64,000 nt of DNA from Anaerophaga thermohalophila str. Valhall (GTDB lineage: Bacteria; Bacteroidota; Bacteroidia; Bacteroidales; Marinilabiliaceae). Below the pieces are notes generated by a model. It ran no database searches. It was not told the origin of the DNA and saw only the letters and a list, made by a program, of their open reading frames with translations. This document shows positions 33,587 to 38,511 of the stretch, piece by piece (position 1 is the first letter of the stretch; each line of letters starts with the position of its first letter). The stretch lies in assembly GCF_000250735.1 (NCBI RefSeq), contig NZ_AHZV01000106.1:1-64000 (forward strand), in the 5' to 3' direction. The translations under genes and the position numbers were made by a program.

Positions 33587-34151
33587 ATGGAAGATGATGT
33601 TCAAATACTGCTCGAAAGCACAGAAGAAAACATGCAAAAGGCCATCGATCATCTTGACCGGGAGCTGGGTAAAATACGTGCCGGCAAAGCCAATCCACGT
33701 ATGCTTGACGGTGTAATGGTTGAATACTACGGAACCATGACCCCTCTTCAGCAGGTGGCCAGCATTAACACGCCCGACCCGCGCACCATTGCTATTCAGC
33801 CATGGGAGAAAGGAATGATCCAGCCAATCGAAAAGGCCATTATGAATGCCAATCTTGGACTCAATCCCGACAATAACGGCGATATTGTTCGGATTAACGT
33901 CCCCCCTTTAACTGAAGAACGCAGACAGGATCTGGTTAAACAGGTGAAGAAAGAAGGAGAAGAAGCACGCATCAGCATCCGCAATGCACGACGCGAGACC
34001 AATGATGAACTTAAAAAACTAAAAAAGGAACGGCCTCCCCGAAGACATGGAGAAAGATGCTGAAGACAAAGTTCAGAAACTGACCGACAAGTTCACAAAA
34101 AAGGTCGAAGAAATGCTTGAGAAAAAGGAAAAAGATATTATGACCGTTTAA
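33587..34151 (+). CDS. frr: Ribosome recycling factor, frameshifted by one extra base
   Basis: RRF releases ribosomes from mRNA after termination, together with EF-G. Seen: EDDVQILLESTEENMQKAID at the N-terminus, LGKIRAGKANPRMLDGVMVE and NVPPLTEERRQDLVKQVKKE. In frame the product stops after 158 aa (at 34063) with a non-homologous tail. Removing the C at 34031 restores GLPEDMEKDAEDKVQKLTDK and the family end, stopping at 34151 with about 187 aa, the normal length. The gene is essential, so a sequencing or assembly insertion is more likely than a real mutation. A -1 slip at the nearby A-rich run would not restore the frame. Confidence 0.88.
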
Positions 34152-35709: not shown

Positions 35710-36738
35710 TCAGATCCTGGCGGCATCAATAAACGCTTTAATATTCTCCGTTGTAACACCCGGGGGCATTCCACCTCCGACAGAAAGCATGAGCCTCGAT
35801 TTATCGGGTGTTTCGTCAAGAAGTTTTTTTACTTCGCGTTTCACATCATCCGGCGTTCCCGAACCCAATACGTCTCGAGGAGGTATATTCCCAAGAATGG
35901 TCATCCTGCCTGCGGAAGCCTCTATAAGGTCTTTTGCTGACATTTGTGTTCCCGGATTAAATAGGTTAATCCCCAGGTCGGGATAATGCTTCACGGACAT
36001 GGAACAATCGGCATCATTATGGAAAAACTTAACACTAACCTGAGCATCATCATAAAGCTCCTTAAAATAGGGGAAACCGAATTCCATAAACTCATCCTCT
36101 CCTACAAATCCGACAATATCGTCGAGCATCAGGATACCATCGATGGTTGGTATGGCCTCGCGCTGCAACTTGTGCCAGGTCTTCAGAAAGTCGGTAACAA
36201 TACGCATCAGTTTATGTACGGCATCAGGCTCCATCATCATCGTTGTCATCAGTTCGGTGGTACCCATCAGGAAGGAAGCGATATTCAGCGGGCCCCGCGA
36301 AACAGAAAAACGAATTCTATGCCCTGCTTTTTCAATATCGGGCCGGCACATCAGCAACCTGTTAAGCATGAAAGGCAGTAATCCGTCTGTTTCAGGATTT
36401 GGAACCTTCAGCTCATCAATGTCAGCAGACGAACGGATGGTTTTTTCGGCAAACGGAAATTCATCTTTCCAGAAAATGCACCTGGCGCCAAAAGCAGATG
36501 GTTCAGTACACATCCCGTATTCACTCCAGAAGCCGGGAAGGAACATCACCTCAGGGAATGTTTCTATAGCTTTAAGATTGGCTTTAAGCCATAGTTCATC
36601 ACTGGTAAAATAATCGAGAATGTTAATGCCATACCAGTTTGGCAACCAGGGCGAATCGATAATAAACCCTATCGGCATTCTGTTCTGTTGTTCTCCTTTT
36701 ACGACAGAAATCAGTTCTGTCCATTGTTTGTCGGTCAT
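35710..36738 (-). CDS. Uroporphyrinogen decarboxylase-family methyltransferase (COG0407)
   Basis: 342-aa TIM-barrel protein of the UroD/MtaA/CmuA superfamily, here next to a corrinoid protein, so more likely a corrinoid methyl carrier transferase than a haem enzyme. Seen: GFIIDSPWLPNWYGIN, RFSVSRGPLNIASFLMGTTE, FFHNDADC with His240, LFNPGTQMSAKDL, and SVGGGMPPGVTTENI. The zinc-ligand motif HxC and the late Cys of MtaA/MtbA are absent (GGG at 321-323), as in the HxD subgroup of unknown substrates. It is divergent from the two corrinoid-linked genes across a 149-bp gap. Confidence 0.78.
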   Translation of the reverse strand: MTDKQWTELISVVKGEQQNRMPIGFIIDSPWLPNWYGINILDYFTSDELWLKANLKAIETFPEVMFLPGFWSEYGMCTEPSAFGARCIFWKDEFPFAEKTIRSSADIDELKVPNPETDGLLPFMLNRLLMCRPDIEKAGHRIRFSVSRGPLNIASFLMGTTELMTTMMMEPDAVHKLMRIVTDFLKTWHKLQREAIPTIDGILMLDDIVGFVGEDEFMEFGFPYFKELYDDAQVSVKFFHNDADCSMSVKHYPDLGINLFNPGTQMSAKDLIEASAGRMTILGNIPPRDVLGSGTPDDVKREVKKLLDETPDKSRLMLSVGGGMPPGVTTENIKAFIDAARI

Positions 36739-36887
36739 AGTAAATGGAAGGTTTGCAGTTTACGGTTCTAAATTTACATAGTATAAAGCATCTTTACAAA
36801 TATATTTTTGTATATTGATGCCGGATAACAGGTGAATATCAAACATTTTTGTGCCAAAATATAAACGTTCACAACCCGAAAACAACT

Positions 36888-37562
36888 ATGGAAAAAGAGG
36901 AATTACTACAAAAAATTCTGCATTGTGTTGAGAATGGAAAAGTAAACAACGCCGCTCCTTATCCTCCGAATATGAAAGGCAAGGATGGTGCCGATGAATG
37001 GACAAAGAAGGCATTGGAAGAAGGCATAGGCCCCGATGAGATACTGAGTGAAGCTCTCATTAAAGCCATGGATGTTGTGGGCAAAAAATTCTCAGAAAAG
37101 AAAATTTTTGTCCCTCAGATGTTGATTTCGGCTAAAGCCATGAATGCTGCCATGGAACATCTCAAACCCTACTTCCAGTCTGGCGCTGTCAAAAAGAAAG
37201 GCTTGTTTATTATAGGAACGGTAGCAGGTGATCTGCACGACATAGGCAAAAATCTTGTAGGCATGATTGTCGAAGGTGCCGGGTGGGAAGTTCTGGATTT
37301 AGGCGTTGATGTCAATTCCCGGAAATTTCTCGATGCCATAGGTTCTCATAAGGATGCCGTTGTCGGCCTTTCGGCATTGCTTACAACCACCATGGCCAAC
37401 ATGAAAACCATAGCACAGGATATCAAGCAACAATACCCGGAAGTCCCTCTGATTATTGGCGGGGCGCCGGTTAATGAAAATTTCAAAACCGAAATCGGCG
37501 CAGACGGGTATGCTCCGGATCCCCAGGGGGCTGTTTCCTATCTCAATTCATTGATTGCCTGA
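36888..37562 (+). CDS. Corrinoid (B12-binding) protein, MtbC/MtaC-like
   Basis: 224-aa carrier with an N-terminal helical B12 cap domain (residues about 1-95) and a C-terminal Rossmann-like B12 domain. The cobalt-ligand motif D-x-H-x-x-G is at 115-120 (DLHDIG), followed by SAL near 162 and IIGGAPVN near 197. Such proteins accept a methyl group from a donor through one methyltransferase and pass it on through another. An in-frame upstream start at 36849 is possible, but ATG 36888 gives the family N-terminus MEKEELLQKIL. Its substrate should be set by the divergent UroD-like enzyme. Confidence 0.88.
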   Translation: MEKEELLQKILHCVENGKVNNAAPYPPNMKGKDGADEWTKKALEEGIGPDEILSEALIKAMDVVGKKFSEKKIFVPQMLISAKAMNAAMEHLKPYFQSGAVKKKGLFIIGTVAGDLHDIGKNLVGMIVEGAGWEVLDLGVDVNSRKFLDAIGSHKDAVVGLSALLTTTMANMKTIAQDIKQQYPEVPLIIGGAPVNENFKTEIGADGYAPDPQGAVSYLNSLIA

Positions 37563-37678
37563 CCCGACTCCCCCGCCGGATTTTAACATAAAAATACGGG
37601 TGCTCTTGAAAGAGGCGTTTCCGTCATGGTATTTGCAAAAAGAGACTTTTCAGGAGCAGACTTAATCATTACATTTAT

Positions 37679-37735
37679 GTGTCTGTTCAGTAAAGTGTCA
37701 TTTACAAGGCTTGCAAAAACAGAAAGCCCCGTTTT
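37679..37735. repeat. Repeat family A, fragment A5
   Basis: GTGTCTGTTCAGTAAAGTGT and CATTTACAAGGCTTGCAAAA match the inner half of repeat A. The terminal part is missing. It lies 30 bases before the start of the next gene. Confidence 0.55.
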
Positions 37736-37764
37736 TAGTTCGAAACCTGAACTTCTGTAAAATC

Positions 37765-38511
37765 ATGAGCGGCAGATATAACATACGCGAAACAGCAGAC
37801 AGGACTCAAAACGGAAGGTCTGTCAGAATACATCCTGACAATTCACTTATTACCATTGACCCCGGGCGGGTATCCGGCATGTTAGAAGTTCCGTCGGGGC
37901 AAATAGAGCCATATCTTGAAGAGCTGATCGTGACACTGATCGACGAATGCCTTTCTGTTGTCTGCCCTTCTGCATGCTTCAGCTGCTTTCAAAGGCCTGA
38001 AATCGATGTTTCGGCAGGAACCATGAAGCTTCAGGGTTACACTTTTTACCTCAACAAGATGGTTGCCTCATGCCTTCAGAAAAGTGAAGAAATATATTGT
38101 TTTATCGGAACGTGCGGGAAAGAAATGGAAAATCTTTCGCGGAAACATCTGCAACAGGGAAACCTTCTCGAAGGCTATATTATAGACATTATAGGCTCCG
38201 AAATGGCCGAATCGGTCGCCGGCATTGCTCACGACACCATAGAAAAGTATGCCAACCGCAGCGGAATGAAAATCTCTAACCGCTACAGTCCGGGCTATTG
38301 CAGATGGCCTGTTTCCGACCAGCAAAAACTATTTGCTCTGATGTCGGGAAACACCTGTGGTGTAAAACTGACAGATTCATCATTGATGCTCCCCATCAAA
38401 TCTGTCAGCGGCATTGTCGGTGCCGGGAAAGAAATGAAAAGAATGGAATACCAATGCTCGAAATGCGATGCTAAGTATTGTCTATTCAGGGATAAATACA
38501 GGAACCATTAA
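37765..38511 (+). CDS. Stand-alone MetH-activation-domain-like protein
   Basis: 248-aa protein resembling the C-terminal activation domain of B12-dependent methionine synthase, which binds S-adenosylmethionine and supports reductive remethylation of the cobalamin. Seen: FIGTCGKEMENLSRKHLQ, GSEMAESVAG, the SAM-site-like RYSPGYCRWPVSDQ (Arg173, Gly177, Tyr178) and LMLPIKSVSGIVGAG. Extra Cys groups are CPSACFSCF near 67-75 and CxxC-x4-C at 231-239, which could hold a metal cluster. It follows the corrinoid protein, so its likely job is reactivation of that carrier. Start ATG 37765 is chosen over one at 37711 inside the repeat fragment. Confidence 0.75.
   Translation: MSGRYNIRETADRTQNGRSVRIHPDNSLITIDPGRVSGMLEVPSGQIEPYLEELIVTLIDECLSVVCPSACFSCFQRPEIDVSAGTMKLQGYTFYLNKMVASCLQKSEEIYCFIGTCGKEMENLSRKHLQQGNLLEGYIIDIIGSEMAESVAGIAHDTIEKYANRSGMKISNRYSPGYCRWPVSDQQKLFALMSGNTCGVKLTDSSLMLPIKSVSGIVGAGKEMKRMEYQCSKCDAKYCLFRDKYRNH

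Follow-up and report, generated by a model that had tools for sequence, protein, structure and literature searches.

Which methyl compound would feed a divergent gene arrangement that encodes a UroD-like protein on one strand, and a corrinoid protein with a MetH-activation-like protein on the other? This arrangement lies at 35710-38511 of a 64,000-nucleotide stretch of Anaerophaga thermohalophila str. Valhall (contig NZ_AHZV01000106.1, positions 1 to 64,000; hereafter the window). We refer to the three genes as URO, COR and REA. The original prediction, made from the sequence alone, had described URO as divergent from the other two genes and proposed a demethylation route with a built-in reactivator dependent on S-adenosylmethionine (SAM). 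A Pfam scan of the window together with its sequence bore out the description: all three genes are present, in that order and on those strands. With a confidence slightly better than even, we favour the view that URO, COR and REA form a corrinoid-based module that would O-demethylate the methylated uronic acid found in plant glucuronoxylan. What we observed is the presence, order and co-occurrence of the genes, their homology, particular residues and the predicted folds; the substrate we infer from genomic context. The genes of the locus are:

35710..36738, minus strand: URO, 342 aa, UroD superfamily (PF01208, 127 bits); proposed methyltransferase I (MT-I), a 4-O-methylglucuronate:corrinoid protein O-methyltransferase
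36739..36887, no strand: divergent intergenic region between URO and COR, 149 bp, from the sequence
36888..37562, plus strand: COR, MtgC-like corrinoid protein, 224 aa (B12-binding PF02310 and PF02607)
37765..38511, plus strand: REA, stand-alone MetH-activation-like protein, 248 aa, ATG start (PF02965, 48 bits); proposed SAM-dependent corrinoid reactivator

URO travels with COR and REA

We searched an order sample of 393 Bacteroidales genomes at thresholds of E <= 1e-40 for URO, 1e-15 for REA and 1e-50 for COR, which gave 27, 52 and 44 carriers, respectively. COR was found in 25 of the 27 genomes with URO and in 19 of the 366 without it (p 2e-25), and REA in 21/27 versus 31/366. The URO carriers cover 11 family groups, and the two that lack COR are metagenome-assembled genomes, 80% and 76% complete. 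Because URO is often adjacent to neither gene in these genomes, its link to COR and REA is more than physical. A further gene, SMT, encodes a stand-alone homocysteine methyltransferase (PF02574) and was present in 19 of 27 URO carriers versus 2 of 53 genomes without URO (4 of 53 at the search threshold, where two matches, in G039 and G054, fall in MetH-like frames of 778 and 823 aa and were not counted). These 53 genomes, also used for the GH67 comparison below, were taken by listing order, with no random draw.

By scanning named genomes with an alignment of URO we obtained the best 80 loci of at least 552 relatives; going by record title, these 80 belong to Bacteroidota, Ignavibacteria, Verrucomicrobia, Lentisphaerae, KSB1, Alphaproteobacteria and others. 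Together with 24 loci of the order sample they make up 104 URO loci, with four URO sequences common to both sets and L097 and L098 near-identical; 18 of the 80 are shorter than 10 kb, and tblastn was used to place genes at loci (SMT in L156, COR in L131, URO in 12 of the 80). COR lies within 10 kb of URO in 29 of the 104, and SMT is present at 28 of these 29. The order COR-SMT-REA-URO recurs in Ignavibacteria, Melioribacter, a spirochaete, Chitinispirillaceae and two Bacteroidetes records, and in Bacteroidales with URO divergent. In close relatives (L032, L079 and Bacteroidales loci such as L154, L155, L157 and L158), SMT sits between URO and COR. The Cys residues of what we take to be the zinc site of homocysteine enzymes are kept in 26 of 26 SMT proteins.

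The best evidence that REA does the job of the activator RACo in the URO module comes from the exchange of the two at the 29 URO-COR loci: 24 have REA only, four have RACo only (L183, L188, L191 and L192, titled Alphaproteobacteria or Rhizomicrobium), none has both and one has neither. At the window locus, which is as far as the RACo search extended in this genome, no RACo-type activator was found and REA stands in its place. This exclusion holds for the URO module only, because REA and RACo occur together in five loci of another kind, with UroD-thioredoxin fusions and CobW.

As in a three-component O-demethylase, a dedicated corrinoid protein stands alongside the putative MT-I, since COR adjoins URO. 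The closest NCBIfam model to COR is the MtgC-type NF047996 (184.7 bits, under its cut-off of 370). We prefer the ATG at 36888 as its start; the upstream TTG at 36849 would give 237 aa. Its presumed cobalamin-binding motif is:

37230..37247, plus strand: DLHDIG of COR, residues 115-120

UroD proteins with a C-terminal thioredoxin domain were encountered separately, as in L040:6972-8330 and, similarly, in L031, L035, L036, L038, L039, L042, L126 and L165. Pfam confirmed the fusion in L031 and L040. Their genes cluster with COR, CobW and REA, in many cases with RACo as well, and Phe-x-Cys replaces His-x-Cys in six aligned members. Genes for MtaB-type methanol:corrinoid methyltransferases were also seen in or near the URO module, at L156:6934-8307 and L185:13641-15017, both on the minus strand. 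The one in L156 sits between COR and REA, alongside SMT. Given where both genes lie, a single corrinoid protein may serve both methanol and the sugar ether.

URO has a His/Asp site in place of zinc-thiol ligands

Scores of URO against the NCBIfam hemE, MtaA and MtbA models were all far under the cut-offs: 50.6 bits on TIGR01464 (HemE, cut-off 303) and 67 bits on TIGR01463 (cut-off 235). Two segments of the protein correspond to the ligand positions of related methyltransferases:

36013..36021, minus strand: H240-N241-D242 of URO, at the position of the His-x-Cys zinc ligands of thiol methyltransferases
35770..35778, minus strand: G321-G322-G323 of URO, with G322 at the position of the third-ligand Cys of MtaA-type enzymes

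His240, Asp242, Gly322 and Gly323 are invariant across 49 aligned URO sequences, the window's included. In a 16-row alignment, the Asp242 column holds Cys in 13 of 13 non-URO UroD-family proteins, and the Gly322 column holds Cys in nine of them and His in four. Both alignments thus bear out the earlier claim that the zinc-thiol motif of MtaA/MtbA is absent from the UroD-like protein. We rejected its assignment as a hemE decarboxylase on the score, and as MtaA/MtbA or a type 1 Mlp, which carry His-Cys-Cys, on the ligand residues. Kountz and Balskus (PMC10418091) assign His-Cys-Cys to UroD S-methyltransferases and state that in O-methyltransferases one or both Cys are changed to carboxylates or non-ligands. 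CdmB functions without zinc, according to PMC13222342, and for that reason a metal in URO is not certain.

The AlphaFold model of URO (pLDDT 91.9) has as its top fold match in the PDB a Methanosarcina mazei methyltransferase (4ay7, TM 0.82). The source genome (G000; 371 contigs, completeness 99.97%) encodes a separate UroD homologue that scores 312 bits on PF01208. It also holds a UroD-family remnant with two TGA stops (G000:C92:18828-19121).

Xylan-degradation genes surround URO in several lineages

GH115 and GH67 enzymes are known to act on the (4-O-methyl)glucuronate side chains of xylan. Under a strict neighbour rule (more than half of the query covered, E < 1e-60), 14 of the 80 named loci and 2 of the 24 from the order sample had GH115 or GH67 near URO, always within 7.5 kb. 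None of 35 loci with REA and without URO had either (0/35 versus 14/80, p 0.005). Twelve of the 16 neighbouring genes share the strand of URO, and the gap between matched stretches falls to 45 bp (L171), 86 bp (L221) and 211 bp (L210). In L171, the GH115 frame lies directly upstream and ends where URO starts. In the Melioribacter-type locus L185, GH115, COR, SMT, REA and URO run head to tail on one strand with gaps below 100 bp. Other genes near some URO copies encode GH10, GH8, GH43, GH30-like proteins, UxuA and SDR oxidoreductases.

At the level of whole genomes, GH115 occurs in 16 of 27 URO carriers versus 48 of 366 genomes without URO, GH67 in 13/27 versus 7/53, and one or the other in 19/27 versus 10/53. 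GH115 is not enriched in genomes of the order sample that have COR and lack URO (4/19 versus 44/347, p 0.29), so that it follows URO and not corrinoid systems at large. The source genome itself has both families, GH115 on contig C241 and GH67 on C262, where the locus also includes a SusD-like gene.

Our tree comprises 105 URO proteins plus a single outgroup, whose branch of about five changes per column leaves the root unsure. Loci with xylan genes or UxuA (24 of 104 under a looser rule) fall in several branches, requiring at least ten state changes. The window's URO lies in a 20-row clade (support 97). In this phylogeny of the UroD-like protein with its neighbours, a check suggested earlier, L165, with GH67 at 5.3 kb, COR and REA, branches beside this clade (support 81). 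The rows nearest to the window (L154-L157 and L079) are without GH115 or GH67 in reach. Judged by these neighbourhoods, which point to 4-O-methyl-D-glucuronate (MeGlcA), the growth tests on methoxylated or methylamine compounds once envisaged would probably miss the substrate.

A GH67 fragment was seen at L084:2772-3107, on the strand of URO and 112 bp away from it, with 16% of the length at 52% identity. It has the look of a decayed GH67 gene; the same genome gave no GH67 match, and the fragment was not counted among the loci above. Rhamnose, amylase and sugar-transport genes at the REA loci L031, L037 and L040 were dropped as substrate hints because those loci have neither URO nor GH115/GH67.

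REA resembles a MetH activation domain and has a cysteine tail

REA matches PF02965 alone, over profile positions 110-261 of 273, which is the C-terminal half only (48 bits, cut-off 25). The ASKHA domains of RACo (PF14574, PF17651) were not matched, which sets REA apart from RamA/RACo proteins; in L040, they sit in the protein next to REA. Structure prediction of the 248-aa protein recovered the activation-domain fold in the model: REA matched 1j6r (TM0269) by sequence (E 2.6e-18) and by predicted fold (TMt 0.84), and MetH activation domains were matched as well. Its two motifs of note are:

38275..38310, plus strand: SNRYSPGYCRWP (REA residues 171-182), counterpart of the MetH motif RxxxGYxxxP
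38455..38481, plus strand: CxxCx4C tail of REA (C231, C234, C239)

The first of these is presumably the SAM site; the source genome's MetH bears RPALGYPACP at the same motif. Cys179, within this segment, is conserved in the 19 rows of REA alignment A4 and absent in L041, L044 and L045.

The extra Cys clusters ascribed to REA survived in part. The C-terminal triad is invariant in A4 (which omits the short L154 and L157 proteins, the latter carrying the tail). It is present in 19 of 20 REA proteins of named URO loci, the sole miss ending at a contig edge, and in 16 of 18 of a set of REA relatives, where the misses are that same contig-edge protein and a split-MetH-type protein. A second group (C62, C67, C71 and C74) is peculiar to the window's REA, and we rejected it as a conserved cluster. 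Since the split-MetH-type relative L044 bears the triad as well, the triad is not special to the URO system. The TM0269 match stops at residue 205 of 214 with nothing aligned to the tail, and the model of the tail has low confidence (pLDDT <50 from residue 232). That it might hold an iron-sulfur cluster is put forward as a possibility only.

The one further PF02965 match in the source genome lies in a full-length MetH (1279-aa frame, 406 bits). REA was accordingly rejected as the missing activation domain of MetH, the genome's MetH being complete with its own, and a partner MetH without that domain was not found. The original prediction held that orthologues of the 248-aa protein beside such a MetH would shift the cluster to methionine synthesis. 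Distant relatives in L044 (E 7e-10) and L045 (E 1e-8) do adjoin a MetH-like protein, but this does not overturn the demethylation route, because the genome's own MetH has an activation domain and, where the trio has close relatives, their neighbours are COR, SMT and URO.

A proposed route from methylated glucuronate to methionine

The chemical steps, all of which we infer, could run as follows. GH115 and GH67 alpha-glucuronidases, encoded elsewhere in the genome, would free MeGlcA. URO would then move its O-methyl group to Co(I) of COR, and the glucuronate would enter the isomerase/UxuB/UxuA route; the His/Asp site of URO, in place of His/Cys/Cys, would suit an ether oxygen. In most relatives that bear the module, the methyl group would pass from COR to homocysteine via SMT, yielding methionine. 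Whenever Co(I) became oxidised to Co(II), REA would methylate COR reductively with SAM and so restore it, in the way of the MetH activation domain. The claim of a demethylation route with its own SAM-dependent reactivator thus gains support from co-occurrence, conserved gene order, residues and predicted fold. Methionine synthesis and demethylation, posed earlier as alternatives, are probably a false choice, as the module may do both. Extended to other phyla, the proposal becomes an unassigned pathway of B12-dependent MeGlcA O-demethylation with the methyl group recovered directly as methionine, in which REA, with a possible reducing Fe-S cluster in its tail, replaces RACo; we give this fuller version somewhat less than an even chance.

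The acceptor may vary. In L125:9227-12911 (minus strand), a REA locus of a URO-bearing genome, COR, a pterin-binding methyltransferase, MTHFR and REA form one run, and this version would, from its gene content, pass the methyl group to tetrahydrofolate; tetrahydrofolate is perhaps the acceptor in G147. In the source genome the acceptor could be MetH, an HxC-type UroD on contig C351 (L047), whose gene adjoins galactokinase and galT genes, or something else.

Evidence weighing against the proposal, and rival readings

Several observations weigh against a MeGlcA module. No xylan gene adjoins the window trio, and 66 of the 80 named URO loci are without GH115 and GH67 in reach. Eight of 27 URO-bearing genomes have neither family, and what matched GH67 in G147 and G257 is partial or contains a stop. 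Six of the 27 lack REA (G262, G267, G295, G344, G390 and G415), five of which have COR. Searches of the source genome gave neither SMT nor, apart from MetH, any pterin methyltransferase. Genomes and loci in our tests are, moreover, not phylogenetically independent.

Genes for Gfo/Idh/MocA, DUF6807 or ThuA proteins lie within 10 kb at 18 of 104 URO loci, and these loci belong to branches 47-53% identical to the window's URO and to L078/L161 and L080/L162, which are 70-72% identical and stand next to the window's clade. The contexts were seen in L078, L080, L083, L085, L089-L096 and L100. URO homologues there may act on other methyl ethers or O-methyl sugars. Because such contexts occur beside the window's clade too, we are less confident of MeGlcA and give more weight to a broader family of sugar-ether O-demethylases, in which MeGlcA would be one of several substrates and the window member would act on another O-methyl sugar. 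This reading, which also accords with the nearest rows being without GH115 or GH67 in reach, strikes us as unlikely but as the most serious of the rivals: L165 beside the window's clade and the GH115 gene directly upstream of URO in L171 argue for MeGlcA, as do the GH115 and GH67 genes of the source genome.

Less likely again is an O-demethylase of methoxylated aromatics, such as ferulate, freed along with xylan and acting in the manner of OdmB/VdmB. Known aromatic O-demethylases belong to the UroD superfamily (PMC13222342 and PMC10418091), and esterases do occur, with a PF00756 esterase beside URO in L185 and a gene like it (cluster c41) in L222, so that xylan-bound methoxylated aromatics stay in view as a further point against MeGlcA. 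The recurring neighbours are nevertheless alpha-glucuronidases, xylanases and UxuA (no search was aimed at aromatic-degradation genes), and GH115 tracks URO across genomes.

A split methionine synthase, with COR and REA as parts of a MetH-like enzyme and URO as an accessory, would explain the SMT genes at nearly all URO-COR loci and the remote REA relatives that adjoin MetH-like proteins. The alphaproteobacterial COR-RACo-DUF1638-SMT arrangement in L183 also resembles the Phaeobacter split MetH with RamA-like and DUF1638 proteins (PMC5764234). We consider this explanation very improbable for the window, given the full-length MetH with activation domain in a source genome where SMT was not found, and given COR alongside URO in 25 of 27 genomes. 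That URO is a decarboxylase or another UroD-fold enzyme without methyl transfer has hardly any probability left: UroD is a general fold, and the 20 solved structures that match URO by sequence (E <= 0.001) are all uroporphyrinogen decarboxylases, but the hemE score is a fraction of its cut-off, the other UroD homologue of the genome scores far higher on PF01208, URO has a near-obligate tie to COR and its top fold match is a methyltransferase.

Elsewhere in the window, the frr frame (ribosome recycling factor, 33587-34063) stops early and the usual C-terminus continues in another frame to about 34150. The gene being essential, this apparent frameshift is probably an assembly or sequencing error.

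Relation to known corrinoid systems

Hardwood xylan carries MeGlcA as a side chain, and alpha-glucuronidases are known to release it. Among the papers listed by our searches of the open-access literature, no account turned up of oxygen-free removal of the MeGlcA methyl ether. If true, the MeGlcA proposal would fill an unassigned step in the anaerobic microbial use of wood and straw, would have plant-cell-wall sugar breakdown supply the methyl/B12 economy of anoxic habitats, and would make such xylan degraders dependent on B12 and SAM for MeGlcA demethylation. A large protein group with no match beyond the general UroD family also gains a testable role from the proposal.

For REA, the nearest known counterpart is TM0269, reportedly described by Huang et al. 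in 2007 as the stand-alone activation protein of Thermotoga maritima MetH (1j6r). The two share the fold and the SAM-site region; TM0269, however, serves MetH, whereas REA is linked with COR and URO, and it bears CxxCx4C.

The aromatic O-demethylases of acetogens (OdmB/VdmB, MtvB) and CdmB combine an MT-I of the UroD superfamily with a corrinoid protein, an MT-II and an ATP-dependent activating enzyme. As proposed here, the URO module shares with them the UroD-superfamily MT-I, the separate corrinoid protein and, except for CdmB, the methyl group of an ether. It differs in its xylan/uronate context, as opposed to lignin aromatics or chloromethane, in homocysteine and not tetrahydrofolate as the usual proposed acceptor, and in the putative PF02965 reactivator that stands in for RACo in 24 of 29 URO-COR loci.

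Type 1 mlp clusters (Kountz and Balskus, PMC10418091) likewise unite UroD homologues with a corrinoid protein and a reactivator. Each encodes two or three Mlps, in almost all cases with His-Cys-Cys, along with a Ram/RACE protein, and S or Se substrates are proposed for them, whereas the window has an Asp-bearing UroD protein and REA. The REA loci L035 and L038-L040, with a UroD-thioredoxin fusion, CobW and RACo, look nearer to these clusters by gene content. Finally, MtgBCD of Ruegeria pomeroyi (PMC12478193) resembles the proposed module in joining demethylation and methionine synthesis on one corrinoid protein, and differs from it in its glycine betaine donor, its aerobic marine hosts and its other methyltransferases.

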